Origin: an uncultured Bacteroidales bacterium
GTDB taxonomy: Bacteria > Bacteroidota > Bacteroidia > Bacteroidales > F082
DNA: 64,000 bases
Assembly: GCA_946184615.1 (NCBI GenBank)
Contig: CAMHFN010000004.1
Location: 62,001-126,000, forward strand
Reading direction: 5' to 3'
Shown: piece by piece, positions 1 through 58,313 of the stretch
How the letters are laid out: every line of letters starts with the position of its first letter
Numbering within the stretch: position 1 is the first letter of the stretch
Translations under genes and position numbers: made by a program
Notes under the pieces: generated by a model
Seen by the model: the letters and a program-made list of their open reading frames with translations, nothing else
The model's database searches: none
Told to the model about the DNA's origin: nothing

Positions 1-1407
1 GAAAAACCCAACTGGAAACCCCTTGAAGCCAAGAATACCAATATGAAGTCCGACTTCGCCAAGATGATTGAAGCTGAACAAGTGCCAGAGGTTACCCCAC
101 AGGTCATTGAATTCGGCAAAGATGTGAAAATCACCGACATCACTGACGGCTTCAAGCTCTATTCCGCCATCAACACCGCCAACGACATCTTCGAGTTGAA
201 ATTCCACTTCAACTATGGCCTTTTAGACGATCCCGATCTGGAACGTGCCGCCAGCTACTTATCGATGCAAGGCACCGAAGACATGCCTTATCAAGAGTTT
301 GCCCTTGAACTTCAAAAGATGGGTGCTCGTTTATACACTTATGTAGAAGATAATGAATATATTGTAACCTTATCCGGTTTTGAGAAGGATCAGGAGAAAC
401 TGTTGGAAATGTGCTACAACAAGCTCTACCATCCTTCCAACGATGAAAGCCAGATTGCCATTCTGGTTGATGGCGAAAAGATGGAAATCCAGACCCAAAA
501 AGACGATGCTTCTACCTGGGCCAGTGCCGTCCGTGCCTACGCCCTTTACGGCGAGAAGTCGAGTTACCTGAATCATAGCAGCCTCAAGGAGTGGGCGAAA
601 CGCACTGGCAACGAACTACTTGCTGAAGTCGCTGAGCCGCTGAAATACGACGGCTATGTCACCTATTCTGGCAATCACTTCCCCAAAGTGATGGTACAGT
701 CTATCAAGAGCCACCGTATTCTCCCCTTGAAACCGCTTCACAGAACAGAAACCTTCAGGCTTGAGACCCGGTTTACCGAACCCCAAGTGTTCTTTGCACC
801 CAACAAGAAGTTCCGTCAAAGCAATATTTGGTTCCATGTACCTGGTGAGAAGCTGACTCAAGAAGATGAAGCCATGGCCAGCTTGTTCAACAAGTATTTC
901 GGCACCGACATGTATTCCATCATCTTCCAGGAAATCCGCGAGTTCCGTTCTTTGGGTTATACTGCATACGCCAGCTATGCCCACGATTACTTGGAGCGCA
1001 AACCAGGCTTCCTGTACGGCTACCTAGGCACTCAAGGTGACAAAACCATCGATGGCATTGAGGCTTTCAGTAACTTGATTAAGAACATGCCGGAGCGTAT
1101 CGAAAAGTTCAATGCCTCAAAGGATGCACTGCTCAAGTCGAGAGCCAGCAACTACATTACGTTCCGCAACAAGCCCTACACTGTTCAGCATTGGATTAAA
1201 TCCGGTTATGACCATGACCCAAGAGCTGAGGTCACGGAGATCATCCGCAAGGCCGAGTATAAGGACGTGGAAAGCTTCTACACCCGAATGATCAAGGATC
1301 GTCCGATTGTCATCATGATGTCCGGTCCGAAAAAGGTCAACAAAAAAGAGCTTGGCAAGTACGGGACAGTCACCAAGCTCAAGTATAAGAAGATCTTTAA
1401 AGAATAA
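1..1407 (+). CDS. M16 family zinc metallopeptidase, C-terminal part (5' end outside window)
   Basis: The reading frame is open from base 1 and continues upstream of the window; the first internal ATG is at 43. The visible ~468 residues resemble the second, non-catalytic half of pitrilysin/insulinase-type (M16) peptidases: a fold about keeping up with small substrates, with segments such as GTEDMPYQEFALELQKMGA. No HxxEH zinc motif is visible, as expected if it lies in the missing N-terminal half. Two-half M16 proteins of Bacteroidota are usually periplasmic and degrade peptides. The gene ends with TAA at 1405-1407, just before a hairpin at 1428-1463. The family assignment is from overall resemblance. 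Confidence 0.8.
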   Translation, partial: EKPNWKPLEAKNTNMKSDFAKMIEAEQVPEVTPQVIEFGKDVKITDITDGFKLYSAINTANDIFELKFHFNYGLLDDPDLERAASYLSMQGTEDMPYQEFALELQKMGARLYTYVEDNEYIVTLSGFEKDQEKLLEMCYNKLYHPSNDESQIAILVDGEKMEIQTQKDDASTWASAVRAYALYGEKSSYLNHSSLKEWAKRTGNELLAEVAEPLKYDGYVTYSGNHFPKVMVQSIKSHRILPLKPLHRTETFRLETRFTEPQVFFAPNKKFRQSNIWFHVPGEKLTQEDEAMASLFNKYFGTDMYSIIFQEIREFRSLGYTAYASYAHDYLERKPGFLYGYLGTQGDKTIDGIEAFSNLIKNMPERIEKFNASKDALLKSRASNYITFRNKPYTVQHWIKSGYDHDPRAEVTEIIRKAEYKDVESFYTRMIKDRPIVIMMSGPKKVNKKELGKYGTVTKLKYKKIFKE

Positions 1408-1433
1408 AGAAGTAAGAAGCAAGAAGCAAGAAG
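1402..1433. repeat. Degenerate heptamer array (GAAGYAA type)
   Basis: Consecutive 7-mers GAATAAA, GAAGTAA, GAAGCAA, GAAGCAA and GAAGG follow each other without a break from 1402. The array begins over the last codons of the M16 gene and runs into the left arm of the hairpin at 1428-1463. The mirror-complement array at 1459-1479 lies on the other side of the hairpin. Confidence 0.8.
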
Positions 1434-1463
1434 GCTGGAACTCGTTGGAGAACCAGCCTTCTT
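1428..1463. terminator. Hairpin between convergent genes
   Basis: AAGAAGGCTGG at 1428-1438 pairs with CCAGCCTTCTT at 1453-1463, an 11-bp perfect stem with a 14-nt loop. It lies between the plus-strand M16 gene and the minus-strand Hsp20 gene, where a bidirectional terminator is expected. There is no long T-run, so efficient termination is uncertain. Confidence 0.5.
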
Positions 1464-1479
1464 ACTTCTGTCTTCTCCC
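1459..1479. repeat. Degenerate heptamer array (TTCTTAC type)
   Basis: Three in-register 7-mers, TTCTTAC, TTCTGTC and TTCTCCC, directly after the Hsp20 stop codon on the minus strand. Read on the other strand they match the GAAG-type array at 1402-1433, so the two arrays face each other across the hairpin. Confidence 0.65.
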
Positions 1480-1480
1480 C

Positions 1481-1903
1481 TTATTGTACCTCAATCGTTT
1501 GCATCAAGGCTTTCTTTTCATCGACGGTCACCCTTGGCAAGATGACTTCAAGAACTCCGTTTTCAACCTTAGCGGTGATTTTGTCTCGATGGATGTCCTC
1601 AGGCAACACCAGCGCGTTACGGAACTGTTCGGACGAGAACTCATGGCGCAGATAACGGACGCCCTCTTTGCCTTCGTTCTTCTTTTCAGTTTCCTTGCAC
1701 ATTTCCACCACCAAGTTGCCATCGTGGTCGATGTTGATCTTGAGGTCTTCTTTCTTCAGGCCAGGGACACTATACTGAATGGTGTAGTTCTCTTTGGTCT
1801 CAATCACGTTCATCTTGGGTTCTGAGAAGGACACGCTGTCCATGTTCATCAGTTCATTGAATAAGGTAGGAATAAAATCCTGATTTCTTCTGGTTAAATA
1901 CAT
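1481..1903 (-). CDS. Hsp20/alpha-crystallin family small heat-shock protein
   Basis: This 140-residue protein has the normal length for a bacterial small heat-shock protein. An alpha-crystallin domain covers roughly residues 33-137, including VPGLKKEDLKINID and the C-terminal strands with GVLEVILP. Family members are ATP-independent holdases that form oligomers and bind unfolding proteins in the cytoplasm. The ATG at 1903-1901 fits the family start (MYLTRRNQDFIPTLF). The gene is monocistronic: a strong terminator at 2003-2036 isolates it from the SPFH/NfeD genes upstream. No TAnnTTTG box was found directly upstream, so a different promoter class is possible. Confidence 0.93.
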   Translation of the reverse strand: MYLTRRNQDFIPTLFNELMNMDSVSFSEPKMNVIETKENYTIQYSVPGLKKEDLKINIDHDGNLVVEMCKETEKKNEGKEGVRYLRHEFSSEQFRNALVLPEDIHRDKITAKVENGVLEVILPRVTVDEKKALMQTIEVQ

Positions 1904-2002
1904 AACTTTGGTCTCCTATTTTTTAGTTGTTTATTTATTCAGTTGTTCCGTTGTTCAGTGGGTTGAACAACGACACTGCACCCTAGTCAATTTCTGGACC
2001 AA

Positions 2003-2095: not shown

Positions 2096-3055
2096 TCATT
2101 TTGATTGGAACAAATCCTTGATACCTCCAATGGAACCCAGCATGTTAGTGGCTTCGTATGGCAGATAAACGGTCTTGTTCTGCTGACCTGAAGCAATCTC
2201 CTTCAGGGCTTCAACATATTTTACCGCAAGCAGATAATTGACTGGATCAGCGCCACCACTGGAAACTGCCTCAGTAATGTTGCGAATGGCAGTAGCTTCA
2301 GCTTCGGCCTGGAGGATCTTGGCACGGGCTTCACCTTCTGCCTTAAGGATATTGGCCTGCTTGTCAGCTTCGGCAGCATTGATTTCGGCCTGCTTCTCAC
2401 CTTCGGAGTTCAGGATCTGGGCCTGCTTCTCGCCTTCGGCTTTCAAGATTTCGGCACGACGGTTACGCTCGGCCTGCATCTGAAGTTCCATGGTACGGCG
2501 GATGCTCTCGGGAGGTGTGATGTCCTGCAGTTCCACACGGTTGACCTTTACACCCCATTTATTGGTGGCATCGTCGAGCACATTGCGGAGCTTCGAGTTG
2601 ATGGTGTCACGCGAAGTGAGGGTCTCATCAAGTTCCATCTCACCCACTACATTACGGAGGGTGGTCTGGGTGAGCTTTTCGATGGCCACGGGCAGGTTCT
2701 GGATCTCATAGACGGCCTTCATGGGATCGACAATCTGGAAATACAGCAAAGCATTGATCTCGGTCATGACGTTATCTTTGGTGATCACGCTTTGTTTGTC
2801 GAAATCGTAAACCTGTTCACGCATATCAATGCGCGAGGTGGCGATCAGACGTCCGTCCTGCCGGCGAGCAATGGTCTCTTTGGCCTTTTCGATGATGGGA
2901 AGGATCACATTGATGCCCGCATTAAGGGTGCGGTTATACTTGCCGAGACGTTCGACAATCAAGGTCTCCGATTGGGAGACGATCTTGATACCCCTCAAGA
3001 TGTAGATGACGACGAGGGCGATCAAGACGACAAGGACGATGTTTAGAGGGCTCAT
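2096..3055 (-). CDS. SPFH/band-7 (stomatin-like, QmcA-type) membrane protein
   Basis: 319 residues. One N-terminal membrane anchor (about residues 5-24, IVLVVLIALVVIYILRG) is followed by an SPFH/band-7 domain. After it comes a long charged coiled-coil (about 190-255) made of repeated AEGEKQA-like heptads, and then a C-terminal hydrophobic segment. Such proteins oligomerise in the inner membrane as microdomain scaffolds that influence membrane-protease activity. The upstream NfeD gene is its classic partner, 12 bp away on the same strand, which strongly supports the call. The start ATG (3055-3053) sits just behind a heptamer array. Confidence 0.92.
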   Translation of the reverse strand: MSPLNIVLVVLIALVVIYILRGIKIVSQSETLIVERLGKYNRTLNAGINVILPIIEKAKETIARRQDGRLIATSRIDMREQVYDFDKQSVITKDNVMTEINALLYFQIVDPMKAVYEIQNLPVAIEKLTQTTLRNVVGEMELDETLTSRDTINSKLRNVLDDATNKWGVKVNRVELQDITPPESIRRTMELQMQAERNRRAEILKAEGEKQAQILNSEGEKQAEINAAEADKQANILKAEGEARAKILQAEAEATAIRNITEAVSSGGADPVNYLLAVKYVEALKEIASGQQNKTVYLPYEATNMLGSIGGIKDLFQSK

Positions 3056-3060
3056 AATAG

Positions 3061-3081
3061 TTAGAAGTTAGAAGTTAGATG
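3061..3081. repeat. Degenerate heptamer array (TTAGAAG type)
   Basis: TTAGAAG, TTAGAAG and TTAGATG lie in exact 7-bp register. The array fills the short spacer between the NfeD stop codon (3068) and the SPFH start (3055) and includes the last NfeD codons. Confidence 0.75.
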
Positions 3082-3514
3082 TGTAGGGTTTTACGGTTAA
3101 TATAATGCTATCCAGTTTAACGATTTCGACTTCGACACCTTTTTCAATCACAGCGCCATCGACAGCAATGGCTTTCCAGTCGTCGCCATCAATTGCAACG
3201 CGCCCCGTGTGTTGAGCGGCATCAATACGTTCCGACACAATTGCTTTCCGCCCAACGAGAGCATCTGCATTGGTTTTTACATCTTTCGACTTGCGATCCA
3301 AAAACTTCAGCATGAAGGGACGAAGGAAGATAAAGGTAAGCAAAGAGACCACCGCAAAGATGATGATTTGCCAGGTCAAGTTGAGGCCCAATGCGGCGGC
3401 AAGAGCCGAAAAACCAGCTCCAATCGCAAAACAGATGGCGCCAAAAGTGGCCGAACAAATCTCAAAGATAATCAGAAGAAAGGCCACAATGAGCCAGATT
3501 TGATATAAAGCCAT
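3068..3514 (-). CDS. NfeD-family membrane protein
   Basis: 148 residues. Three closely spaced transmembrane segments lie within about residues 7-70, followed by a soluble OB-fold domain (about 85-145) with GRKAIVSERID and GDDWKAIA. This is the short NfeD form without the serine-protease domain. NfeD proteins pair with SPFH proteins and are thought to modulate their assembly; here the SPFH gene follows after 12 bp in one operon. A TATCTTTG box (3558-3551, minus strand) with TTG 20 nt upstream is a good promoter candidate. Confidence 0.88.
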   Translation of the reverse strand: MALYQIWLIVAFLLIIFEICSATFGAICFAIGAGFSALAAALGLNLTWQIIIFAVVSLLTFIFLRPFMLKFLDRKSKDVKTNADALVGRKAIVSERIDAAQHTGRVAIDGDDWKAIAVDGAVIEKGVEVEIVKLDSIILTVKPYTSNF

Positions 3515-6513: not shown

Positions 6514-9012
6514 TTATTCTTCTTTTTTTGAATGGCGATGGCGATGCTTCTTTTTCTTTTTACCCTCCTCATCGTCCCCATAGCCATAGCCTCCATAACC
6601 ATAACCATAACCATAACCACCATAGCCGTAACCGTAACCATAGCCGTAGCCATAGCCGTAACCGTAGCCATAGCCGTAACCATAGCCATAGCCTCTATGT
6701 TTCTTATACTTGACGGAGTTCAGAACGACTGACAAGTTAGGATAACGGCCTGCTCTATAGATCTTGTCAAGTTCAGACACGAGGCGCTTATCCGTCTTAT
6801 TAGCACGCACCACAAACACCGTGCTGTCGGCCAAACGCTTCACAATCTCGGGGTCGGCCACAATGCCCAAAGGGACATTATCAAGGAACACATAGTCGTA
6901 ACGTTCTCGCAGGTAATCCACCAACGCATCAAGCCTCTCGCTCATGAGCAATTCGGCGGGGTTAGGTGGCACGGGGCCAGAAAAGACGACATCCAAATTC
7001 TGGGCAATCAAATCCGGGTTAATCAGTTCGTCCACGGTATCAGCCGTACCTGAGAGGTAATTGGAAACGCCCATTCTAGACTTCACTCCGAACACTTTAT
7101 TCAAAGTGGCCTTTCGGATGTCCAGGTCGACTAGCACCACTTTTTTGTTTGCCAAGGCGAAACTGGTAGCCAAGTTCGTGGACACGAAAGTCTTACCAGA
7201 ACCCACAATGAAAGAAGTGAACATGACCACTTGTCCGTTCTTACGATCATGGTTTTTCATATACTCCAGGTTAGACCGCACCAGTCGGAAAGCTTCCGAA
7301 ACCGAGTCTCTTCCATTTTCCCTAACGACAATGGCATGGTCTTTTGAACCTTCCTTGAAGGGGATTTCACCCAAGAACGGGGTCTTGGTGATGCGTTCCA
7401 CATCTGCTCCATAATGCACGGTAGTATCGAGCAACCGACGAAGCACCAACACCAGAACAGGAACCAGCAATCCAATCAAAATGCCACGCGAAACGGCCTG
7501 GCGGGGTTTGGGAGCGATAACCGTGTAGTTGGCCCAAGCTTGGTCGATGATCTTGCAAGAAGGCTCAATTTTCGGTTCATTCAACATCAATTCCTCACGT
7601 TTGGTAAGCATCGTCAGCAACAGCCCTTCCTTGATCTGTTTTTTGCTCTCAATGGCTTTCACCCGCAGCTGTTCCACAGGCACCGACTGAACCTGCGCAT
7701 TCACCGATTGGCGTCCCCTTGACACGGAAGCGATACGCGTATCCAACTCATCGTGATAGGACTGTAGCGACTCTTTTACTGTTTTTTCCAAAGTGATAAG
7801 TTCTGTCAATTTGGCCTGTGCATTGGGGTTGTTCATGGTCCCTGTCTGCTTGTACTTATTCAACAAAATTGCCATTTCGTTATATTTGTCAATCAACATG
7901 GCAGCTTTGCCTTTCAGGCCCATATTTCCCGGAATCAAGTCGTGGTCAGTGTTGCTTTCAACATAATCAATAAGATACTCCGTAAGTCCGCGTTGTGCTT
8001 CCAAATCCTTAAGTTCTTGCGAATATTCAATACTGGAAGCCACGTAAGACTGTCCATACGATTGGACATCAATAATATTATGCCTCTGTTGGAAGCTGAC
8101 CACCTGTTGCGAGATAGAATCAATGTCGCTATCGAGGTATGCGATACGGTCATCAATATATTGTGTTGAATACTTGAGAATACGCTTTTGGTCTTCCATG
8201 GAATCCTCGTTATACACATCAATCAAGGTATTCAGCACATCGGCAGCACGTGTCGGGGAAGTGTCCGACAAAGAAAGACGGAGGATGGTATTCTTTTTCT
8301 CATCGTCAGGAACCACATTCACCGCATAGCGGTATTTGGTGGCCACGGTTGCCACTGGCAGATGTTGCACCCGGATGGAGGTACCATTGAATTGATCATA
8401 ATACCAAGTATGTTTGACCATTACTTTCCCCACGGGGGTATTCACCACCTCTCCCACTCGAACTGTCATCTTAGGTGATTCGTCGTTCCCCTGAAAATTT
8501 GAAAGCTCAACGGTAGATACATCTATGGGAGTCACTACAAACGAAGCGGAAAGCTGTTCGTTAGCATCAGGGAAAAGCACTTCGATAGGTGAATCGTTAT
8601 AGAGGGTTTTGTTACGTTTAGCCAAACGGGTAGTATAGGAATAGTTCGTATTAAGATTCAACTTACGGACCACTCTCTCCATCAGTGTCTGTGACTTAAG
8701 GATAATGATCTCATTGTTGATAGAGCTCAATGCCACACCGCCGCCTGAGAATTCACTCATCAGAGCAGACGATCTTAGCGATTCCGATCCACCACTGACT
8801 CCGGTCTTCAAGAGAATGGTAGCGGAACTGGAATAGATTCTTTCCTGGCCTTTCACAATATAATAAGCAATACCAGCACCAATCAAAGCGCAAAGAATAA
8901 ACCAGTGCAGATTGTGCAGGACCAAAAACAAAATGTCTTTGAACTGTATTCCACTGGAGTTATCCTCAAGGAAGCTTACGTCTTCTGTGGTGTTTTGTTT
9001 ATTGTTTTCCAT
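6514..9012 (-). CDS. Wzc-like polysaccharide co-polymerase / BY-type tyrosine kinase with long Gly-Tyr tail
   Basis: 832 residues. Transmembrane segment 1 lies at about residues 34-56, then a Wzz-type periplasmic domain with coiled coil, then transmembrane segment 2 near residue 510-530, then a cytoplasmic BY-kinase domain. Walker A has VGSGKT with Lys607; Walker A' is VVLVDLDIRK and Walker B is YVFLDNVPLG. The C-terminus has 18 tyrosines in alternating Gly-Tyr units, followed by an acidic then basic tail. Family members autophosphorylate on the tyrosine cluster, and cycling with the phosphatase controls chain length and export with Wza. The wza gene is 23 bp upstream and the phosphatase gene 13 bp downstream. 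Confidence 0.95.
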   Translation of the reverse strand: MENNKQNTTEDVSFLEDNSSGIQFKDILFLVLHNLHWFILCALIGAGIAYYIVKGQERIYSSSATILLKTGVSGGSESLRSSALMSEFSGGGVALSSINNEIIILKSQTLMERVVRKLNLNTNYSYTTRLAKRNKTLYNDSPIEVLFPDANEQLSASFVVTPIDVSTVELSNFQGNDESPKMTVRVGEVVNTPVGKVMVKHTWYYDQFNGTSIRVQHLPVATVATKYRYAVNVVPDDEKKNTILRLSLSDTSPTRAADVLNTLIDVYNEDSMEDQKRILKYSTQYIDDRIAYLDSDIDSISQQVVSFQQRHNIIDVQSYGQSYVASSIEYSQELKDLEAQRGLTEYLIDYVESNTDHDLIPGNMGLKGKAAMLIDKYNEMAILLNKYKQTGTMNNPNAQAKLTELITLEKTVKESLQSYHDELDTRIASVSRGRQSVNAQVQSVPVEQLRVKAIESKKQIKEGLLLTMLTKREELMLNEPKIEPSCKIIDQAWANYTVIAPKPRQAVSRGILIGLLVPVLVLVLRRLLDTTVHYGADVERITKTPFLGEIPFKEGSKDHAIVVRENGRDSVSEAFRLVRSNLEYMKNHDRKNGQVVMFTSFIVGSGKTFVSTNLATSFALANKKVVLVDLDIRKATLNKVFGVKSRMGVSNYLSGTADTVDELINPDLIAQNLDVVFSGPVPPNPAELLMSERLDALVDYLRERYDYVFLDNVPLGIVADPEIVKRLADSTVFVVRANKTDKRLVSELDKIYRAGRYPNLSVVLNSVKYKKHRGYGYGYGYGYGYGYGYGYGYGYGYGGYGYGYGYGGYGYGDDEEGKKKKKHRHRHSKKEE
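6577..6693 (-). repeat. Hexanucleotide repeat tract encoding the kinase Gly-Tyr tail
   Basis: About 39 codons are built from GGN-TAY hexamers (on plus: GCC/ACC alternating with ATA/GTA), interrupted twice by an extra glycine codon. The unit length of 6 bp means slippage changes the tyrosine number without breaking the frame. Synonymous variation (ATA/GTA, ACC/GCC) shows the array is not freshly homogenised. Confidence 0.9.
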
Positions 9013-33263: not shown

Positions 33264-33298
33264 TTCTTACATCTTTCTTCTGTCTTCTTACTTCTATC
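33264..33298. repeat. Degenerate heptamer array between wzm and wzt genes
   Basis: TTCTTAC, ATCTTTC, TTCTGTC, TTCTTAC and TTCTATC run in exact 7-bp register and fill the whole spacer between the Wzm stop codon (33299) and the Wzt start codon (33262). On the transcribed strand they read as purine-rich GAAG-type units. Confidence 0.8.
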
Positions 33299-35355: not shown

Positions 35356-35361
35356 GGGGAA

Positions 35362-35396
35362 GTTGAAAATTGAAAATTGAAAGTTAAGAGTGAAGA
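35362..35396. repeat. Degenerate heptamer array upstream of the sugar transferase gene
   Basis: GTTGAAA, ATTGAAA, ATTGAAA, GTTAAGA and GTGAAGA are in perfect 7-bp register. The array lies 6 bp upstream of the sugar transferase ATG and overlaps the last codons and stop (35384) of the DegT-type aminotransferase gene. Confidence 0.8.
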
Positions 35397-36517
35397 GTTT
35401 GGGTTAGGAGGGTGCAAATACGATCTTGGTCTTCCTCGGAAAGATAAGGATGGATGGGGAGCGAGAGGACGATATCCGCCAGACGGTCGGCTACTGGACA
35501 TTGGTTTTCGTTCGGGTCAAGCAAAGCGAAGGCCGTCTGTCGATGCATTGGAATGGGATAATAGATGGCCGTCGGGATCCCCGCCGCTTTCAACGCTTCT
35601 TGAACCTTGGCACGCATTTCCTTGCTGGGGAGTTGGATGGTATATTGGGCCCAACTGGAATAAAAGCCTTTCGGAATCTCTGGAGTCTTCACCACACCTT
35701 TCAGTTTTTGGGTATAACGTTCTGCCACTCGGTTGACATCCTCCAACTCATAATCACGGAACGCTTTAAGTTTGACCAAAAGGATGGCGGCTTGAAGGCT
35801 ATCAAGTCGGGAGTTCATGCCAATGCGGATGTTGTCATACCGGTCGGTTCCTTTGCCATGCAGGTGATACGACTCCATCAGGTTCGCCCATTCGTCGTTG
35901 TTGGTGAACACTGCACCACCGTCGCCATAACAACCCACTGGCTTTGCGGGGAAAAACGAAGTCGCGGCAATGTCTCCAAAAGTGCAGGCTTTTTGGTCAC
36001 CGATACGACCGCCGAAGCCTTGCGCCGCATCTTCGAGCAGATACATCCCATAGCGTTGGGCAATCTGCTTGATCAATTTAAGGTCCGCTGGCAGTCCAAA
36101 CAAGTCGACGGCGATAATGGCTTTCGGTTTCAGTTTGCCCAACTTGACGGTCCGCTCAATTTTATGAAGCAGGTCGCGGACATCCATGTTGAACGTATCT
36201 TGATCCACATCGACGAAAACAGGAGTAGCACCTTGCATGGAGACCACTTCTGCTGAAGCAAAGAATGTAAAACTGGGCACAAAGACAGCATCACCTGCTT
36301 TCACATCCCACGCCTTCAGCGCCAGCAACAGGGCATCGGTACCACTGTTGCAAGCGATGCAGTGCTTCACTCCCACATAATCGGCAAAAGCCTGTTCCAT
36401 TTCTTTGACCTTAGGCCCCATCACGTAGGCACTAGAAGCCACCACGTCGAGGATGGCCTGATCCATTTCGTCCTTCAGGGCGTTATATTGAGCTTTTAAA
36501 TCTCTAAATTGAAGCAT
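35384..36517 (-). CDS. DegT/DnrJ/EryC1 family PLP-dependent sugar aminotransferase, WbpE-like
   Basis: 377 residues. The PLP-binding lysine is Lys192 in ATSFFPAKPVGCYGDGGA, and LLEDAAQGFGG contains the Asp pairing with the pyridine nitrogen. This pattern is typical of WbpE/WlbC enzymes that aminate the 3-keto group of UDP-GlcNAc-3-ulosonic acid using glutamate. The next gene upstream encodes a WbpD-like N-acetyltransferase, the following step in that pathway, which supports a 3-acetamido sugar in the product. The oxidising enzymes WbpA and WbpB are not in the window. Confidence 0.9.
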   Translation of the reverse strand: MLQFRDLKAQYNALKDEMDQAILDVVASSAYVMGPKVKEMEQAFADYVGVKHCIACNSGTDALLLALKAWDVKAGDAVFVPSFTFFASAEVVSMQGATPVFVDVDQDTFNMDVRDLLHKIERTVKLGKLKPKAIIAVDLFGLPADLKLIKQIAQRYGMYLLEDAAQGFGGRIGDQKACTFGDIAATSFFPAKPVGCYGDGGAVFTNNDEWANLMESYHLHGKGTDRYDNIRIGMNSRLDSLQAAILLVKLKAFRDYELEDVNRVAERYTQKLKGVVKTPEIPKGFYSSWAQYTIQLPSKEMRAKVQEALKAAGIPTAIYYPIPMHRQTAFALLDPNENQCPVADRLADIVLSLPIHPYLSEEDQDRICTLLTQTLHS

Positions 36518-36518
36518 A

Positions 36519-36552
36519 GTTGTTAGTTTTCAGTTAGCAGTTTTCAGTTAAG
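36519..36552. repeat. Degenerate heptamer array upstream of the DegT gene
   Basis: GTTGTTA, GTTTTCA, GTTAGCA, GTTTTCA and GTTAAG lie in strict 7-bp register. They fill the spacer before the aminotransferase start (36517) and encode the last residues and stop of the WbpD-like protein. Confidence 0.8.
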
Positions 36553-42120: not shown

Positions 42121-42155
42121 ATTAAGAATTTGAAATTTAGAATTTAGAATTAACC
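42121..42155. repeat. Degenerate heptamer array in the porX leader
   Basis: ATTAAGA, ATTTGAA, ATTTAGA, ATTTAGA and ATTAACC run in strict 7-bp register between the porX start codon (42111) and its -7 box (42186-42179). Confidence 0.8.
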
Positions 42156-42161: not shown

Positions 42162-42195
42162 TTTGTGATTCTATAACGCAAAAATAATAATTTTG
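42162..42195. promoter_or_regulatory. Divergent promoters of porX and the HD-domain gene, -7 boxes head to head
   Basis: CAAAAATA (42179-42186; TATTTTTG on minus, for porX) and TAATTTTG (42188-42195, plus, for the HD gene) are separated by one base, the same geometry as at 3551-3567. For the plus promoter a TTTG at 42162-42165 lies 22 nt upstream. The two promoters overlap and cannot be occupied together. Confidence 0.65.
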
Positions 42196-42237
42196 TTGCA
42201 TAAAAACTCTTTATTTGAAATTTCTAGATTCATAAAG

Positions 42238-43476
42238 GTGGAAACCAACAAGAAAAAAATCGTCAACGATCCGATATATGGATTTGTCGCCATTCCCGAC
42301 GAGTTGCATTTTGACATTATCGAACATCCGTTGTTCCAGCGTCTCAGACGGATCAAGCAAGTAAGTCTCACCAATCTGGTATATCCAGGAGCCAACCATA
42401 CAAGGTTTGCACACAGCTTGGGCGCGATGCACTTGATGCGCCGAGCGATTCAATTGTTGCGAAGCAAAGGTTATGACATCAGCGACCAGGAGTTGGAGGC
42501 TGCTTCGCTGGCCATTCTACTTCACGATAGTGGTCACGGGCCTTTCTCTCACACGCTGGAGAACAGCATTGTGAAAGGGGTGACCCATGAGGACCTCTCC
42601 CTTATGATGATGGAAAAATTCAATCAACTTCACGACGGGAAGCTCGATTTGGCCATCAAGTTTTTCAACAATACTTACGAGAAGGGGTTCCTGAGCAAAC
42701 TTATCTCAAGTCAACTCGATGTAGATCGCATTGACTATCTGAAGCGCGACAGTTTCTTCACCGGTGTTGCTGAAGGCAATGTAAATGCCGAACGTCTGTT
42801 GGACATGATGGAAGTGGTAGACAACAACTTGGCCATTGAAGCCAAAGGCATCTATTCGGTAGAGAGTTTCCTGGTCTCGCGTCGCATCATGTATTGGCAG
42901 GTCTACATGCACAAGACGGTGTTGAGTGCCGAATACATGTTACGGGAAATCCTTAAGCGCGCCCGTCTCATCAGTCGGCAACGGGAACTCCCCGCCTCAC
43001 CTGCCCTATCGTACTTCCTGAACCACGAGGGAGTGTTTACTGAGGCTGACCACATGGAGGAGGTTTTGGAGTTCTTCGGAAGGCTCGACGATTACGATGT
43101 GATGACAGCGGTAAAAATATGGTGCGACGACCGTGACTTTGTGCTTCGGGAGCTTTGCCAGAGGCTCATCCACCGAAAATTGTTCCGCATTGAGCTTTCG
43201 AGCGAACCCTTCGACCCCGACTATGTCGATCACATCCATCACTCCATTGCCCAACAGTTTGGCATTAGCCTCTACGATGCAAGTTTCATGTTACTACAAG
43301 GCATTTCCTCGAACCATGCCTACCACCCCAAGAAACCAGCCATTAACATTTTGTTTAAAGACGGCACGGTGAAGGACATCAACGAGGTCGCTTACGAGTT
43401 TAACCTTTCGGTGCTTTCTCAACCTGTTGTGAAACATTTTATTTGCTATCCCAAAGAGTTGATTTTGAAACGATAA
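42238..43476 (+). CDS. HD-domain phosphohydrolase (dGTPase/YdhJ-like)
   Basis: 412 residues from a GTG at 42238; a TTG at 42193 lies inside the -7 box and is rejected, and the family usually begins just before KKKIVNDPIYGF. HD-superfamily metal motifs: RFAHSLGAMHL, LLHDSGHGPFSHTLE, and later DVDRIDYLKRD. The set matches dNTP triphosphohydrolase/SAMHD1-like proteins, which cleave (d)NTPs, although many members have unproven substrates. It is transcribed alone, divergent from porX. Confidence 0.87.
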   Translation: METNKKKIVNDPIYGFVAIPDELHFDIIEHPLFQRLRRIKQVSLTNLVYPGANHTRFAHSLGAMHLMRRAIQLLRSKGYDISDQELEAASLAILLHDSGHGPFSHTLENSIVKGVTHEDLSLMMMEKFNQLHDGKLDLAIKFFNNTYEKGFLSKLISSQLDVDRIDYLKRDSFFTGVAEGNVNAERLLDMMEVVDNNLAIEAKGIYSVESFLVSRRIMYWQVYMHKTVLSAEYMLREILKRARLISRQRELPASPALSYFLNHEGVFTEADHMEEVLEFFGRLDDYDVMTAVKIWCDDRDFVLRELCQRLIHRKLFRIELSSEPFDPDYVDHIHHSIAQQFGISLYDASFMLLQGISSNHAYHPKKPAINILFKDGTVKDINEVAYEFNLSVLSQPVVKHFICYPKELILKR

Positions 43477-44948: not shown

Positions 44949-45482
44949 ATGTTTGAAAAACTGAGATATAGAATCCTGAACCGCACCATAAACCAGTTCA
45001 TCGCTAATAAAAATGGTTGTAAGATGCCTGATTTTGAGAAGATCAGCTCTATCATCATCATCCTCGAAGACCTGGACAAACAAACGGTTCGTGCCCTTGA
45101 AGAACGCATCAAAACCCTATTCGGCATCGGCAGAAGCAGGTTCATCATCATCACCGAGAAAGCCTCTGACAATGTCCTGCTCAGCGACCAATACTGCGAG
45201 GTGACCACCAAGGACTTCGGATTCATGAAAGTGCTGAAAGCGGAAAAACAAGAGGAAGTACGAAAACTACCCATGACCCACATCCTCGTCAACATGGCTA
45301 AAAACCATATCGACATCAGTGATTTTCTCGCCACCCTCCCCCATGCTGGCTTCCGAGTCAGCATGACAAAAAGCGACCATTATGGCATTTACGACCTTAT
45401 CATTGACAGTGGTGACAACACAGATCCCGTGAAGGATATCGAAGCTTTGTATAAGTATTTGAAAGCGTTGGTAGGGAATTAA
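44949..45482 (+). CDS. DUF6913 family protein
   Basis: 177 residues, soluble, no signal peptide. It resembles a conserved Bacteroidota protein family of unknown function (DUF6913) often found next to dapA. Visible features: an N-terminal basic segment (KLRYRILNRTINQFI), then an alternating alpha/beta region with IIIILEDLDKQTVRALEERI and DISDFLATLPHAGFRVSM. No catalytic motif is recognised. dapA follows after 26 bp filled by a heptamer array, so they probably share a transcript. Confidence 0.7.
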   Translation: MFEKLRYRILNRTINQFIANKNGCKMPDFEKISSIIIILEDLDKQTVRALEERIKTLFGIGRSRFIIITEKASDNVLLSDQYCEVTTKDFGFMKVLKAEKQEEVRKLPMTHILVNMAKNHIDISDFLATLPHAGFRVSMTKSDHYGIYDLIIDSGDNTDPVKDIEALYKYLKALVGN

Positions 45483-45484
45483 TA

Positions 45485-45505
45485 ATTTAGAATTTAGAAT
45501 TTTGA
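45485..45505. repeat. Degenerate heptamer array before dapA
   Basis: ATTTAGA, ATTTAGA and ATTTTGA in 7-bp register occupy the spacer between the DUF6913 stop (45482) and the dapA ATG (45509). Confidence 0.7.
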
Positions 45506-45508
45506 GAT

Positions 45509-46405
45509 ATGAAAAACATATTTAGAGGAACAGGCGTTGCGCTGATTACTCCGTTCAAAAAGGATTTCTCCGTTGACTACGAAGCATTGGAGCGCATTGT
45601 TCATCATGTCATCGACCATGGGGCCAACTTTTTAGTCGTATTGGGAACCACCTCTGAAGCTCCTACGCTTAACGCTGAAGAGAAAAAACTCGTCGTTGAC
45701 ACCATCTTGAGGACCAACCAAGGTCGTCTCCCCGTGCTTCTCGGCATGGGCGGGAACAACACCCAAGCCGTCGTCGAGGCAATCAAAGCGCAGGACTTCA
45801 CGGGCGTCCAAGGCATTCTCAGTGTGGTGCCCTATTATAACAAGCCCAACCAGCGTGGCATGAAAGCCCACTTCGAAGCCATCGCCGATGCGAGCCCAGT
45901 ACCGGTGATTCTCTACAACGTACCCGGCCGCGTGGGCGTAAACCTGCAAGCTGCCACCTGCGTGGAACTAGCCCAACATCCCAACATCATCGCCGTCAAG
46001 GAAGCTTCGGGTAACTTGCAGCAAATCATGGAGATCCTCCGCGACAAGCCCTCCGACTTCGACGTGCTTTCAGGCGATGACGGAATCACTCAACCTCTTA
46101 TGGCCTTGGGTGCCTCAGGGGTCATCTCCGTGGCCGCCAACGCCTACACCCGACCTTTCAGTCGCATGATGAATGCCATGAAAGAAGGTAAAACCGAAGA
46201 AGCCCTGAGGCTCCACTATTCCATGATGCGCATGAACCAACTCATCTTCGCCGATGGCAACCCCGCGGGCATTAAATGTCTGATGAACCACATGGGGCTA
46301 TGCGAAAACGTGTTGCGGCTACCTTTGGTCTCCGTCAACGAAAAGGTGGAAAATGATATTTTGGATGAATTTAGAATTGGAAATTTAGAATTTAGAGATA
46401 AATAA
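45509..46405 (+). CDS. dapA: 4-hydroxy-tetrahydrodipicolinate synthase
   Basis: 298 residues. The Schiff-base lysine is Lys164 in IIAVKEASG, the tyrosine of the triad is in ILYNVPGRVGVN, and the N-terminal GTGVALITPF and GTTSEAPTL motifs are present. It condenses pyruvate and aspartate semialdehyde in lysine/diaminopimelate synthesis. The last thirteen or so residues (from DEFRIG) are encoded by a heptamer array that runs to the stop codon, apparently a recent extension. Confidence 0.95.
   Translation: MKNIFRGTGVALITPFKKDFSVDYEALERIVHHVIDHGANFLVVLGTTSEAPTLNAEEKKLVVDTILRTNQGRLPVLLGMGGNNTQAVVEAIKAQDFTGVQGILSVVPYYNKPNQRGMKAHFEAIADASPVPVILYNVPGRVGVNLQAATCVELAQHPNIIAVKEASGNLQQIMEILRDKPSDFDVLSGDDGITQPLMALGASGVISVAANAYTRPFSRMMNAMKEGKTEEALRLHYSMMRMNQLIFADGNPAGIKCLMNHMGLCENVLRLPLVSVNEKVENDILDEFRIGNLEFRDK
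46369..46396. repeat. Degenerate heptamer array inside the 3' end of dapA
   Basis: ATTTAGA, ATTGGAA, ATTTAGA and ATTTAGA in strict 7-bp register encode most of the last residues of DapA, ending nine bases before the end of the gene and 19 bp before the M14 peptidase start. Confidence 0.75.
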
Positions 46406-52725: not shown

Positions 52726-53369
52726 TTCTCAAAGACATATCTAAGGATATTCGCCCCCATCCTCAAGGCTTTTTCCCTGGTCTCTTGGGAGTCGTGATGG
52801 ACTCGCTGGTCCTCCCAACCATCACCCAGATCACACTCATACGTGAAGATACACACCAATCGGCCCTCGTAAATCAGTCCAAAAAGCTGAGGCGGCTTAT
52901 TGTCATGCTCATGAATCTTGGGCAAGCCATTCGGAAAAGAATACGGCTTTTTGAAAATATCATGGGAGAAAGGCAGTTCCACGAAATCCAGTTCGGGGAA
53001 GACTTTCTTCATCTGAGGTTCGATATATTGGCGGATACCATAGTTGTCGTCGATATGCAGAAATCCGCCTGCCAGCATATAGTTGCGGAGGTTTTGTGCT
53101 TCTACAGCATCAAACACCACATTACCATGTCCCGTCATGTAGACATAGGGATAGTTGAAGATTTCAGGGCTGGAAGGTTCCACTGTGGGGACATCCGGAT
53201 TGATATCCGTGCCCAAGTTTTGATTGCAAAAACGCACTAGATTGGGCAAAGAAGTCGGATTCCCATACCAATCACCCCCACCGCGGTATTTCAACAGGGC
53301 AATGTTAAGTTGCTGAGCAAAAGCCAGTAGAGGAAAAAGAAGCAATATAATTATTGTGATTCTTTTCAT
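52722..53369 (-). CDS. DUF4159 domain secreted protein
   Basis: 215 residues. A signal peptide (cut after AFAQ) is followed by a DUF4159 domain (NIALLKYRGGGDWYGNP, then YVYMTGHG, and later GGFLHIDDNYG). This resembles a glutamine-amidotransferase-like fold used in Bacteroidota of unknown activity. It overlaps rsmE by 4 bp (ATGA), giving one transcript, and its 3' end overlaps recN. Confidence 0.85.
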   Translation of the reverse strand: MKRITIIILLLFPLLAFAQQLNIALLKYRGGGDWYGNPTSLPNLVRFCNQNLGTDINPDVPTVEPSSPEIFNYPYVYMTGHGNVVFDAVEAQNLRNYMLAGGFLHIDDNYGIRQYIEPQMKKVFPELDFVELPFSHDIFKKPYSFPNGLPKIHEHDNKPPQLFGLIYEGRLVCIFTYECDLGDGWEDQRVHHDSQETREKALRMGANILRYVFEN

Positions 53370-54073
53370 TTCATCTGATTAATGAGCTGTATGGTATGGC
53401 AAGCCACCATGGCTGCTGTTTCCGTACGCAGACGTGCATCTCCAAGGCTACACGGCACAAAGCCGTTTTCTTTGGCCAAGGCCACTTCTTCGGGACTAAA
53501 ATCCCCTTCGGGACCAATCAACACCAGGACATTTTCCCCTTTATGATACAAATCGCATAGGCAGTCCTTCACATTATCGTCAATCCAGGCGATGAACTTC
53601 TGCCCTTCAAAGGGCTGTTTCACCAATTGATCAAACGAAATTAAACCGTCAATCCTAGGCAGTCTGGATTTAATGGACTGCTTCATAGCGGCCACCATCA
53701 CCTTTTGGAACCGCTCCACATTGGCCGCGCGGCGTTCCGAATGGTAAGAAGTAAACAGTCGCACACGGTCGATGCCGATTTCTGTGGCTTTCTCAAGAAA
53801 CCACTCCGTACGTTCGTTGAGTTTGGTTGGAGCGATAGCGATTTCGAGCTTGAAACCCCAATGATCATAGCCAGGACGTTTGTTCGTCAAGTTGACGGTT
53901 GCTCGTTTGGGAAAGGCTTCCACCAGTTCCGCATCATAAAGGTTTCCCACCCCATCGGTTACACAAAAGCGTTCCCCTTCGGTCATCCGCAGCACCTTCA
54001 CACAATGCTTGGATTCCTCTTCAGGAAGGACATTAAGGCCTTCAGCAGCACCTTTTATGTAAAAAACGTTCAC
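53366..54073 (-). CDS. rsmE: 16S rRNA (uracil1498-N3)-methyltransferase RsmE
   Basis: 235 residues starting at GTG 54073-54071, the natural family start (NVFYIKGAAEG). It ends in the SPOUT knot with VLIGPEGDFSPEE and CSLGDARLRTETAA, the SAM-binding hallmark of RsmE. It methylates U1498 of 16S rRNA. A heptamer array separates it from argS upstream. Confidence 0.95.
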   Translation of the reverse strand: MNVFYIKGAAEGLNVLPEEESKHCVKVLRMTEGERFCVTDGVGNLYDAELVEAFPKRATVNLTNKRPGYDHWGFKLEIAIAPTKLNERTEWFLEKATEIGIDRVRLFTSYHSERRAANVERFQKVMVAAMKQSIKSRLPRIDGLISFDQLVKQPFEGQKFIAWIDDNVKDCLCDLYHKGENVLVLIGPEGDFSPEEVALAKENGFVPCSLGDARLRTETAAMVACHTIQLINQMK

Positions 54074-54076: not shown

Positions 54077-54104
54077 TTCTTACTTCTTTCTTCTGACTTC
54101 TAAA
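54077..54104. repeat. Degenerate heptamer array between argS and rsmE
   Basis: TTCTTAC, TTCTTTC, TTCTGAC and TTCTAAA in 7-bp register fill the gap between the argS stop (54108) and rsmE GTG (54073). Confidence 0.75.
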
Positions 54105-54107: not shown

Positions 54108-55919
54108 TCACATCCGTTCAGGCATCCCAATCCCAAGGAGTTCAGATGCGTTACGCAGCAAGGCCGCAACCATGTCGCAGACTTGTAAACGGAACATACG
54201 GCGGTTGGCATCTTCTTCCTTAAGGATACTGCACTCCTGATAAAACTGGTTGAACTCCTTAGCCAGATCGAAGATGTAGTTGGCAATCATCGCGGGGCTA
54301 CGTCCTTCGGCGGCCTGATTCAGCACTGTTGGCCAGCTGTACATCATCACGATGATTTCCTTTTCCTTGGGTTGAAGGTCGGAAATTTTGACCTCATGTT
54401 CCAACTGGATGCCTTGTTCAGCAGCCTTACGAAGCACCGAACAGATACGGGCATGGGTGTATTGCACGAAAGGACCTGTATTGCCATTGAAGTCGATGGA
54501 TTCTTCGGGGTTGAACAGCATGGTCTTCTTGGGATCTACCCGAAGGATGAAGTACTTCAACGCACCCAGGCCGATGGTATGATACAACTTGTCGGCCTCT
54601 TTAGGAGCAAGGTCCTTGGCTTTGCCCAGTTCATCGGAAACGCTCTTGGCGGTGGCCACCATCTCGTCCATAAGATCGTCGGCATCAACCACTGTGCCTT
54701 CGCGTGATTTCATCTTACCGTTGGGCAGTTCCACCATGCCGTATGACAGGTGTTCGATGTCTTTGCCCCATTCACGGCCCAGACGCACCAACACCCGCTT
54801 CAGCACGTCAAAGTGATAGATCTGCTCATTACCCACTACATAGATAAGTTTCTCAGGATCGTATTCCTCCACACGAAGTTGGGCGGTGCCCAGATCTTGT
54901 GTCATATATACCGAGGTGCCATCACGGCGGAGCAACAACTTCTCGTCGAGTCCTTCATCGCGAAGGTCACACCAAACGGAGTTATCGTCACGGCGGTAGA
55001 GCACACCCTTTTCAAGGCCTTCCTGTACCAGCGACTTACCCAGCAAATAAGTTTGGGATTCGTAGTAAATCTTCTCGAAACTCACGCCGAGCCGCTTGTA
55101 GGTCACATCAAAGCCATCGTAGACCCACTGGTTCATCATCTCCCAGAGTTGGCGCACCTCGGGGTCGTTGGCTTCCCATTTACGCAGCATTTCGCGGGCT
55201 TCCTGCATCAAGCTGGACTGGGCTTCAGCCTTGGCTTTGGCTTCTTCCTGGGCTTTTTCATCCAAGGTATCGAAATCGGCCGGCAGCAAGGTTTTCAGCT
55301 CCTTTTTAAATTCTTTGTCAAACAAAACGTAAAAGTCGCCAATCAGATGGTCGCCTTTCTTCCCTGTGGATTCAGGCGTACAGCCGTTGCCCCACTTTTT
55401 CCATGCCAACATGCTTTTACAGATATGGATGCCACGGTCATTGACCAGGTTGACACGCACCACGTTTTTGCCGTTAGCTTTTAATATTTCAGAAACGCTC
55501 CAACCCAGGAGGTTGTTACGAATATGGCCCAGATGCAAGGGTTTGTTGGTGTTCGGCGAAGAATATTCAATCACCACTGTCTTTCCCTCCACTGGTTTGC
55601 GACCGTAGTTCTCGTTCTCATGATTCGCACGGAAAAACTCGATCCAGAACGTGTCGGATATCAAAATATTAAGGAAGCCTTTCACCACATTGAATTTGGC
55701 AATCATGGGGGATTCCTTCATCATCTCGGCACCCATCTCGTTGGCTAATTGTTCAGGATTACGACCCGCCAATTTACCAAAGGGGAACACCACCACAGTG
55801 AGATCACCTTCGAATTCAGGTCTTGTCTTTTGAAAGTTGACTTGCTGCGCAGGAGGTTCTTGACCATATAAAGTCTTGAACGACTTGATAAACAGTTGTT
55901 TAAGGAGCTCTTCTAACAT
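54108..55919 (-). CDS. argS: Arginyl-tRNA synthetase
   Basis: 603 residues from ATG 55919-55917 (MLEELLKQLF); an upstream extension of nine residues is rejected. Class I motif HLGHIRN (HIGH variant) is near residue 120, GKMKSREG stands for KMSKS, and the C-terminal anticodon-binding domain ends the protein. It charges tRNA-Arg. Co-transcribed with rsmE and the DUF4159 gene. Confidence 0.97.
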   Translation of the reverse strand: MLEELLKQLFIKSFKTLYGQEPPAQQVNFQKTRPEFEGDLTVVVFPFGKLAGRNPEQLANEMGAEMMKESPMIAKFNVVKGFLNILISDTFWIEFFRANHENENYGRKPVEGKTVVIEYSSPNTNKPLHLGHIRNNLLGWSVSEILKANGKNVVRVNLVNDRGIHICKSMLAWKKWGNGCTPESTGKKGDHLIGDFYVLFDKEFKKELKTLLPADFDTLDEKAQEEAKAKAEAQSSLMQEAREMLRKWEANDPEVRQLWEMMNQWVYDGFDVTYKRLGVSFEKIYYESQTYLLGKSLVQEGLEKGVLYRRDDNSVWCDLRDEGLDEKLLLRRDGTSVYMTQDLGTAQLRVEEYDPEKLIYVVGNEQIYHFDVLKRVLVRLGREWGKDIEHLSYGMVELPNGKMKSREGTVVDADDLMDEMVATAKSVSDELGKAKDLAPKEADKLYHTIGLGALKYFILRVDPKKTMLFNPEESIDFNGNTGPFVQYTHARICSVLRKAAEQGIQLEHEVKISDLQPKEKEIIVMMYSWPTVLNQAAEGRSPAMIANYIFDLAKEFNQFYQECSILKEEDANRRMFRLQVCDMVAALLRNASELLGIGMPERM

Positions 55920-56719: not shown

Positions 56720-56726
56720 CATTCCG

Positions 56727-56810: not shown

Positions 56811-56834
56811 TCAACAAACTAAACACTATATTCC

Positions 56835-57755
56835 ATGTCAATCTCACTAAAAAACCGCAGCTTGATCTCCATCAGCGACTACACGCCCGAGGAGATTTGC
56901 CATGTGCTCGACATTGCAGAAGATTTTGAGAAGAATCCTCATCAAAATCTGCTCAACGGACGCATTATCGCCTCGTTGTTCTTCGAGCCTTCCACTCGCA
57001 CACGCCTCAGCTTTGAGACGGCCATCCAACTATTAGGAGGCAATGTCATCGGCTTCAGTAGCACCTCGGGCACTAGTATCCAGAAAGGCGAATCGTTGGC
57101 TGACACCATCACCATGGTAGCCAGTTACGCTGACCTCATCGTGATGCGCAATCCCATTGATGGCTCCGCTCGCTTCGCTTCCGAAGTATCAAAAGTGCCG
57201 ATCATCAATGCTGGCGATGGTTCCAACCAACACCCCACCCAGTGTATGCTCGACCTCTACTCCATCCGCAAGACCCAAGGCACCCTTGAGAACCTTGAAA
57301 TCACCCTAGTGGGTGACTTGAAATATGGGCGCACCGTCCACAGCCTGGTGGAGGCCATGAGCCACTTCCATGCCAAATTCAACCTAGTATCGCCCGTGGA
57401 GCTGAAACTCCCCAGAACCGTGAAGCAGCACATCAAAGATGCGCACTTGGAATATGAGCAGTTCACTGAATTGGAGGAGGTCATCCCCCATTCCGATATC
57501 ATCTACATGACCCGTGTACAACGCGAACGTTTCCCTGACCCGTTGGAATACGAAAAGGTGAAAAACTCCTATGTGTTGCGTAATGCCATGCTCGCCAACG
57601 CAAAACCCAATTGCCGTGTACTGCATCCGTTGCCACGCGTCAACGAAATCCACGTGGATGTGGATGCCAATCCGAAAGCATACTATTTCCAGCAGGCCCA
57701 GAACGGCGTTTACGCACGTCAAGCACTGATTGCTGCTATTCTTGGGTTAAAGTAA
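56835..57755 (+). CDS. pyrB: Aspartate carbamoyltransferase catalytic subunit
   Basis: 306 residues. Carbamoyl phosphate motif [11 protein letters not shown] (STRTR 53-57), [12 protein letters not shown] and HPLPRVNEI are all present. It makes N-carbamoyl-aspartate in pyrimidine synthesis and partners with the PyrI regulatory chain encoded next (30 bp later). Confidence 0.97.
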
Positions 57756-57783
57756 TTTAGAATTAAGAATTTAGAATTAAGAG
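57756..57783. repeat. Degenerate heptamer array between pyrB and pyrI
   Basis: ATTTAGA, ATTAAGA, ATTTAGA and ATTAAGA in 7-bp register, a perfect 14-bp duplication, fill the spacer; the next in-phase heptamer, GTTATGG, contains the pyrI start codon. Confidence 0.8.
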
Positions 57784-57785
57784 TT

Positions 57786-58250
57786 ATGGAAAAGAGAAAA
57801 GAATTGATCGTTTCAGCCATTGAGAATGGCACGGTCATCGACCATATCCCTGCTGACAAAGTGTTTCAAGTGGTCAAGATTTTAGGCTTGGACAAAATGA
57901 ACAACCCCGTGTATCTCGGCATCAATGTGGAAAGCAAGAAATATGGCACCAAGGGGTTCGTAAAAGTCTCAGACAAGTATTTTGATCCTGAAGACGTGAA
58001 CAAGATCGCCTTGGTGGCTCCCACCGCCTCCATCATCGAGATCAAGGACTTCGAAGTAATCCGTAAGCAAACGGTAACCATCCCCGAGCGTATCGAGCAC
58101 ATTGTGAAGTGCTTCAATCCCAACTGCGTCACCAACAAGGAACATGACATTCCTACCAAGTTCCGTGTGAAGTACGTTGATGGAAAGCTTCGCCTGGTGT
58201 GCCACTACTGTGAGAAGTACACCTCGGAAGAAAACATTGAGTTTATTTGA
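57786..58250 (+). CDS. pyrI: Aspartate carbamoyltransferase regulatory subunit
   Basis: 154 residues. Allosteric nucleotide-binding N-terminal domain, and a C-terminal zinc domain with Cys109, Cys114, Cys139 and Cys142 (KCFNPNC, VCHYC) that contacts PyrB. It mediates feedback by CTP and activation by ATP. Confidence 0.96.
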   Translation: MEKRKELIVSAIENGTVIDHIPADKVFQVVKILGLDKMNNPVYLGINVESKKYGTKGFVKVSDKYFDPEDVNKIALVAPTASIIEIKDFEVIRKQTVTIPERIEHIVKCFNPNCVTNKEHDIPTKFRVKYVDGKLRLVCHYCEKYTSEENIEFI

Positions 58251-58313
58251 ATTTAGAATTTAGAATTAAGAATTAGGAGAAGAAATCTCTAAATTCTTAA
58301 TTCTAAATTATCC
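58251..58313. repeat. Mirror-inverted heptamer array after pyrI
   Basis: Nine in-register heptamers: ATTTAGA, ATTTAGA, ATTAAGA, ATTAGGA, GAAGAAA, TCTCTAA, ATTCTTA, ATTCTAA, ATTATCC. The second half is the reverse complement of the first, giving an 18-bp perfect stem (58257-58274 with 58292-58309) and a 17-nt loop. It lies between convergent pyrI and DUF3467 genes and could act as a bidirectional terminator. Confidence 0.75.

Follow-up and report, generated by a model that had tools for sequence, protein, structure and literature searches.

Intergenic tandem heptamers are familiar from cyanobacteria as short tandemly repeated repetitive (STRR) sequences. In REP/RAYT systems (repetitive extragenic palindromes and the tyrosine transposases associated with them), a small gene lies between inverted copies of a short repeat, many gene-less copies occupy other intergenic sites, and the repeats are specific to subfamilies. 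The intervening sequences of 23S rRNA genes carry an S23 open reading frame (ORF) between inverted repeats able to fold as a stem, but they are not known to include heptamer arrays. Avd, a protein of diversity-generating retroelements (DGRs), works together with a reverse transcriptase. Here we describe arrays of degenerate heptamers in a 64,000-nucleotide stretch of an uncultured Bacteroidales bacterium (contig CAMHFN010000004.1, positions 62,001 to 126,000; hereafter the window), in the rest of its genome (the source genome) and in relatives. Judging from sequence comparison, these arrays are probably the terminal repeats of an insertion element with a single gene, which encodes an S23 protein.

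The S23 loci resemble REP/RAYT in that a cognate inverted repeat flanks the gene and gene-less copies are dispersed. However, the gene encodes a four-helix bundle (PF05635/TIGR02436) and not an HUH/Y1 transposase, and the repeats are tandem heptamers and not single palindromes. With the 23S rRNA intervening sequences they share an S23 ORF between stem-forming inverted repeats, but the loci described here lie between protein genes. A position inside an rRNA gene was rejected, with no Rfam match in any of the S23 loci scanned (14/14) nor in the window. The likeness to STRRs, to the GGGAATC repeats of Xanthomonas (PMC4692102) and to the TAACTGA repeats of Beggiatoaceae (PMC4679880), as far as the available text of the two papers describes them, lies in intergenic tandem heptamers with degenerate units and many arrays per genome. 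The link to S23 is what separates our arrays from those published repeats. The terms 's23' and 'four helix' are absent from the main texts of both papers, and the link appears to be a new point, although the wider S23 literature was not searched and may hold an earlier publication.

S23 loci were chosen regardless of their flanks, as the best match of 30 genomes plus 40 more taken mostly in score order among the matches listed; one of the 70 was truncated and dropped (n = 69). A period-7 array lay within 150 bp of the gene upstream at 45 loci, downstream at 44, on both sides at 34 and on either side at 55. For control genes of the source genome (n = 657), the same distance held an array on the left in 59 cases, on the right in 53 and on both sides in 8, and for congener genes (n = 266) the values were 22, 22 and 0. 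Control genes matched for gaps of at least 40 bp on both sides had arrays on both sides in 4/257 cases and an inverted match, meaning a match of the upstream flank to the reverse complement of the downstream flank at a score of at least 12, likewise in 4/257. Such a match was present at 59/69 S23 loci versus 4.2% of 828 cross-locus pairs, and a direct match between the two flanks at 16/69. The inverted matches comprised 25/30 of the loci that had prompted the idea and 34/39 of those fetched later. Another 29 loci were taken from close and other congeners; the ORF was found in 26 of them, and 19 showed the inverted match. The unit differs between S23 loci yet agrees across one gene, and periods of 8 and 9 are seen at S23 genes as well. 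We regard the association of heptamer arrays with S23 genes as near certain. Broken S23 genes, with internal stops or split matches, stand beside intact ones in G132:C35, G022:C18 and L203, as expected of decaying elements.

The sequence of the unit follows the S23 subfamily. On the S23 tree, proteins beginning ME[IV]FGYRKLIAY have mostly AGTKKAG-type units, MRNFKNYEIW proteins TGGCYTC-type units, MRDF proteins a TTAGC- or ATAAGC-type core, and MKSSDYKQLIVW proteins TAGTCTT units. AGAAGNN units accompany the MAT[KR]SYKELIVW and MATRSFKELIVW proteins, and MA[GS]Y[KR]RFEDLPIW proteins carry ATTTAAAG or AATTCAA units. Sixty-three loci with array letters were compared after removal of pairs with detectably homologous neighbours, leaving 1922 pairs. 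Protein identity and unit similarity were correlated with a Mantel r of 0.588, a value reached by 0/2000 permutations (maximum 0.13). At 70% protein identity or more, 79% of 43 locus pairs have a common unit, with a mean unit similarity of 0.51 on the same strand versus 0.08 on the other. Even at sites with unrelated neighbours, S23 pairs that are 87–89% identical carry an identical unit; because the unit tracks the subfamily there, arrays and gene appear to travel as one between unrelated sites. One exception is L175 against L169–L171 (78–81% identity), where the pattern is common to both but few exact words are.

Two slots of the window vary between congeners, from nearly empty through paired arrays without the gene to an array–S23–array element. 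The argS–rsmE slot (54077–54104) was compared in 30 loci, our own and 29 from congeners. It measures 2 bp in six (G136, G037, G126, G125, G022, G003), holds AGAAGNN arrays in five including our own, and holds paired arrays without a gene in two (G044, G104). In G024 (L214), the argS stop codon is followed by an array, the S23 gene, the inverted array and rsmE. The slot is filled otherwise in the remaining 16 loci, in several of them by what look by eye like GC-rich palindromes. These palindromes, for example of GTCATTGCGAG and GACGC type, were seen in L081, L082, L085, L086, L092, L095, L096 and L098, and unrelated small repeats therefore seem to compete for the same gene junctions. The arrival of an array at rsmE (window position 54073; L073–L102) coincides with a change of start codon: beside an abutting array it is GTG (5/5) or TTG (3/3) instead of the ATG found with the 2-bp spacer (6/6).

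The pyrB–pyrI slot shows the same range of states. PyrB is 98–100% identical in 14 loci (our own and 13 from close congeners), and in eight of these a heptamer array fills the spacer exactly from stop to start codon, with other sequence in six. The units are TTTAGAA/TTAAGAA in our genome, AGTGAAA in G037 and G038, ACGGAAA in G010 and G013, and AGATAAA in G020, G036 and G054. Inspection by eye of 30 pyrI loci gave a heptamer array in 8, two arrays back to back in 3, at most 14 bp in 3, and an insert of 482–510 bp with the order array, ORF, array in 5. The insert was matched by PF05635 and by S23 protein searches in G031, G134, G045 and G135, and that of G044 was assigned by sequence resemblance. 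A further slot, that of the array at 45477–45505, carries AGAAGNN and ACGGAAA arrays in G036 and G008. Presence and absence at orthologous sites (two slots), combined with relatives at unrelated sites (the 1922 pairs), is the behaviour by which a mobile element is recognised.

Solo arrays, which are far more numerous than S23 genes, are related to the arrays at S23 loci. In the source genome, 82/93 arrays matched a close-clade S23 array at a score of at least 12, versus 33% after permutation of the seven columns; at a score of at least 14 the values were 81% and 22%. Several units of S23 loci are equal to those of solo arrays in the same clade, namely AATTTAG and AGTGAAG (G038), AGATAAA (G036), AAAACGG (G008, G020), AGAAGAC (G036, G109 and our own) and AGTTGGC (G034). 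In the more distant G039, the S23-locus unit GAGTTAA is the commonest unit among that genome's pattern matches. Orientation was counted in co-directional spacers longer than 60 bp and in convergent and divergent spacers, leaving out 3 mid-spacer arrays and those scoring below 12; of 34 assigned arrays, 33 read inward, starting at the end of the adjoining gene, and so resemble the arms of an element.

The sequence-only reading had proposed, for thirteen intervals of the window, a single degenerate family spread over the genome that keeps its 7-bp phase and is akin to STRRs, and this picture was borne out. Tandem Repeats Finder detected 12/13 intervals at a score of at least 30 (the miss being 1459–1479), and 10/13 passed a stricter lag-7 score with a cut-off of 10 (misses beginning at 1459, 3522 and 46369). 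The window and twenty 20-kb stretches of the same genome (464 kb) yielded 215 spacers with 33.5 kb of spacer DNA. These contained 26 period-7 segments versus a mean of 0.8 in dinucleotide shuffles. Period 8 was raised too (7 versus 0.8), as was period 14, a harmonic (7 versus 0.2), and the remaining periods between 2 and 22 gave only 0–4 segments each. Arrays were found elsewhere in the genome and in relatives including congeners, so that neither of the two outcomes named beforehand as refutations occurred. Tandem 7-bp units with substitutions, mostly intergenic and many per genome, are STRR-type features. In contrast, the supposition that such heptamers are undescribed in Bacteroidota did not survive: the available text of PMC4679880 reports TAACTGA heptamers from five Bacteroidetes.

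The intergenic location proposed earlier applies to most but not all arrays. Of 93 period-7 segments in 864 kb of the source genome, 65 are mostly intergenic and 20 lie entirely within predicted genes; the listed interval 46369–46396 sits inside the gene 45509–46405. Arrays are held by 52/492 co-directional, 9/99 convergent and 4/95 divergent spacers. Many had been described as lying upstream of start codons and running into flanking codons. Several do invade the 3' end of a neighbouring gene, but arrays adjoin stop codons no less regularly than start codons. Because the gene calls came from a home-made finder based on codon usage, the positions of start codons are approximate. Arrays also occur inside long predicted reading frames (L018 7147–7178, L023 18478–18605, L125 18219–18243, L132 17285–17331, L136 2068–2109), and such in-frame arrays may be read-through linkers or errors of the gene finder.

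The association extends to plasmids and to other phyla. A tblastn search of plasmids with one S23 protein returned 28 records, of which 23 bear the name of a cyanobacterium. All 17 plasmid loci examined, mostly cyanobacterial, had a period-7 or -8 array (score of at least 9) on at least one side, and 11/17 had the inverted match versus 5.9% of cross pairs; units include AGGGAAC, GGAGTAG, GGTGACA and GTCAGGA. Some S23 genes of cyanobacterial plasmids stand inside rows of CRISPR genes, as cas6-S23-cas4 (L234, L237) and cas10-S23-cmr3 (L239), and one (L235) stands between the two ribonucleotide reductase genes, beta and alpha. When 84,980 species were scanned, each represented by one genome, at least 587 relatives were obtained, and 77 of the best 80 had usable flanks. 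A period-7 array was present upstream at 31 and downstream at 41 of these, compared with 5/146 stretches 550–700 bp away; the inverted match occurred at 44/77, versus 2.1% of cross pairs, and the direct match at 13/77. Among nine S23 loci of Xanthomonas, Luteimonas, Dyella, Dokdonella and Rhodanobacter, six have GGGAATN, GGGAGTN or GGGATTC arrays, on one side only, and arrays are missing from the other three (two of Xanthomonas, one of Luteimonas). These arrays resemble the xanthomonad type described in the available text of PMC4692102.

The S23 protein of the source genome (G000:C32:2632–2994) has 121 residues and matches TIGR02436 with 117.7 bits (cut-off 24). Its AlphaFold model consists of four helices with a pLDDT of 95.8. 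In Foldseek it superimposes on 2gsc with a TM score of 0.92, and 2rld is also alike; each of these two S23 crystal entries contains five chains. Among solved structures, XCC0516 of Xanthomonas campestris gives the best sequence match, and the titles of solved S23-family structures read 'hypothetical' or 'unknown function'. The fold is shared with Avd (4dwl, 8ube, 8ub7) at a TM score of about 0.8, but sequence identity is only 10–12%, and the match to the Avd profile is weak and below that model's cut-off. Reverse transcriptase is present in 34/60 relatives. A search with PF00078 found none in three S23-rich genomes (G011, G025, G027; 91–100% complete, 5–6 S23 matches each), and a reverse-transcriptase partner required in every S23-bearing genome was rejected on these grounds.

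We hypothesise that a full element would comprise an array, the S23 gene and the identical array inverted. S23 subfamilies have units of their own, mostly of 7 bp and sometimes of 8 or 9, in which the core is rather fixed while one to three positions vary more freely. The solo arrays and the short hairpin pairs, including all those in the window, would be gene-less copies or remnants of such elements, in the way that REPs relate to RAYT genes. The S23 protein may recognise the repeated core, as DNA or as RNA, and would bring in host enzymes, because no catalytic domain is named in the models of its family. Insertions may survive where genes leave gaps beside a stop or start codon, and replication slippage could afterwards alter copy number within arrays. 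On balance, with odds only a little better than even, we extend this to cyanobacteria, xanthomonads, Bacteroidota and many other phyla: their intergenic heptamers may be one phenomenon, the cis ends of a class of minimal mobile elements not recognised before. The only gene of these elements would encode a protein of the S23/Avd fold that has no nuclease or polymerase of its own, recognises a tandem heptamer specific to its subfamily, and spreads itself and, in trans, gene-less arrays.

In the available text of PMC4679880 and PMC4692102, heptamer repeats of several phyla are so far ascribed to slippage or to an unidentified binding protein. The link to S23 suggests an origin for these long unexplained repeats and recurs across many bacterial phyla. 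Joining the two makes both testable, since a protein and the repeat cognate to it are available, along with natural copies that lack the gene and sites that are almost empty. If true, it would define a class of mobile element without a recognisable transposase and would explain the species-specific 'dialects' of repeats between near-identical operons.

Several observations weigh against an S23 element. All the evidence is comparative and no movement has been observed, and neither a target-site duplication nor a sharp element end was defined. The inverted match is absent at 10/69 S23 loci, at 7/26 of the further congener loci (mostly low-scoring PF05635 matches) and at 33/77 loci of other phyla; at the xanthomonad-type loci, where arrays are one-sided or absent, only 3/9 reach the cut. 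Unit length, tried as a subfamily trait, shows no clustering on the S23 tree (12 changes versus a shuffled mean of 12.6), and MA[GST]Y[KR]RFEDLPIW-type S23s have both 7- and 8-bp units. In co-directional spacers of at most 60 bp the orientation bias is weaker, with 20/29 arrays in one sense. In favour of the element, genomes with a cognate S23 have more matching pattern hits across the genus, in a modest but significant association whose p values (5e-4 and 9e-4) ignore phylogeny. A reversed-pattern control of these searches was uninformative, since reversing the pattern yields something close to a rotation of such arrays. Many congeners are rich in AGAAGNN (overlapping pattern matches: G010 173, G034 113, G004 112) without a cognate S23, and the gene would therefore have been lost there or not be needed. 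A sample of 1.62 Mb selected without regard to S23 contained 335 arrays, but a reverse search from inverted pair to S23 cargo recovered no inverted pair enclosing S23 there and also missed the known element in one of the stretches, L117; of 30 inverted pairs, 22 had a gap below 150 bp.

The sequence-only reading had considered slippage, spacing, translation and curvature as roles of the arrays. None of these explains the inverted enclosure of S23, the tracking of subfamilies by the unit or the inward orientation of 33/34 arrays, although slippage may still affect copy number within an array. A neutral origin, in which slippage with a preference for 7-bp units gives rise to arrays at any site that tolerates insertion, goes back to Mrazek et al. 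2007, as cited in the available text of PMC4679880 and PMC4692102. It accommodates the varying copy number, the point variants within arrays and the occupation of tolerant gaps. However, it predicts neither inverted, unit-matched pairs at 59/69 loci of one gene family nor the inward orientation, and periods of 8 and 9 at S23 genes speak against it too. Subfamily-specific units between unrelated sites are equally unpredicted and already contradict it as a full account, so that we consider it very improbable. The idea that the arrays are or form a stop-codon cassette was rejected: units such as ATTTAGA place a stop in every frame, whereas AGAAGAC, GTTTTCC and TTTCAGA fail to do so (units read, not counted), and the idea therefore cannot hold in general.

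Alternatively, S23 could be a nucleic-acid-binding regulator, with the arrays as operators or mRNA sites of its regulon and a role in autoregulation. Subfamily-specific units and a repeated core typical of a binding site would suit such a protein, and MacGregor suggests, in the available text of PMC4679880, that a repeat-binding protein may be the mobile element; regulation and an insertion element are not mutually exclusive. Against a regulon, congeners whose PyrB is 98–100% identical differ in one and the same slot, where some have the array, some lack it and some carry another class, and therefore no stable regulon exists. Arrays flank the S23 gene on both sides and inverted, and according to the available text of Rehm et al. 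(PMC4692102) the association of the repeats with cell-surface or adaptation genes is not an exclusive one. We consider the regulator reading unlikely. Least probable of all is that arrays or hairpins are host features into which S23 genes merely insert. S23-less inverted pairs with short loops do exist, and S23 genes are far outnumbered by arrays. But the unit should then follow the host genome, whereas it follows the S23 subfamily across genomes and sites, and the empty argS–rsmE slot is 1–2 bp and not an array.

The features of the window are collected in the table below. For the array at 1398–1433, the best match to an S23 array is that of L254, with a score of 11, just under the cut of 12.

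Table. Heptamer arrays of the window, given as candidate gene-less copies or remnants of S23 elements, and genes bordering two of the slots.
Feature	Position	Strand	Context or best match
Solo array, AGAAGNN class	1398..1433	+	overlaps stop codon of M16-peptidase-like gene (43-1407)
Solo array, AGTTAGA	3059..3082	+	between Band_7 (2096-3055) and NfeD (3068-3514) genes; enters NfeD 3' end
Solo array, AGAAGNN	33265..33295	-	fills 36-bp gap (31985-33262 / 33299-34168)
Solo array, AATTGAA/AGTTAAG/AGTGAAG	35360..35398	+	best match: arrays of S23 L274 (G038)
Solo array, AGTTNNC	36517..36549	+	best match: arrays of S23 L258 (G034)
Solo array, AATTTAG	42127..42151	+	divergent spacer, PorX gene 40558-42111 / 42193-43476; best match: S23 L259 (G038)
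Solo array, AATTTAG	45477..45505	+	between DUF6913 gene and dihydrodipicolinate-synthase-family gene
rsmE	53366..54073	-	landmark, border of 54077 slot; start codon GTG here
Solo array, AGAAGNN	54077..54101	-	between argS and rsmE
argS	54108..55919	-	landmark, upstream border of 54077 slot
pyrB	56835..57755	+	landmark, upstream slot border; not part of the element
Solo array, AATTTAG/AATTAAG	57754..57786	+	flush between pyrB stop and pyrI start
pyrI	57786..58250	+	landmark, downstream slot border
Inverted array pair, left arm	58246..58278	+	after pyrI stop codon
Inverted array pair, right arm	58288..58309	-	adjoins 3' end of convergent gene 58315-58665

The interval 58251–58313, listed earlier as one array, in fact consists of the two inverted arms given in the table, which are predicted to fold as a hairpin of -24.4 kcal/mol (z -4.98). 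PorX and a Por secretion tail in the window place it in Bacteroidota. Repeats of other kinds were also seen: about 20 copies of the 6-bp unit CCATAG at 6578–6693, in the 3' part of the gene 6514–9012 and not of heptamer type, and coding repeats of 33/66 bp at 2331–2455 within the Band_7 (SPFH) gene. From about 9000 to 40000 the window contains a polysaccharide/O-antigen-type cluster with an ABC exporter, a sugar transferase and a PseC-like aminotransferase. Most of its genes score low in the genome's codon model, and arrays are present inside it too.

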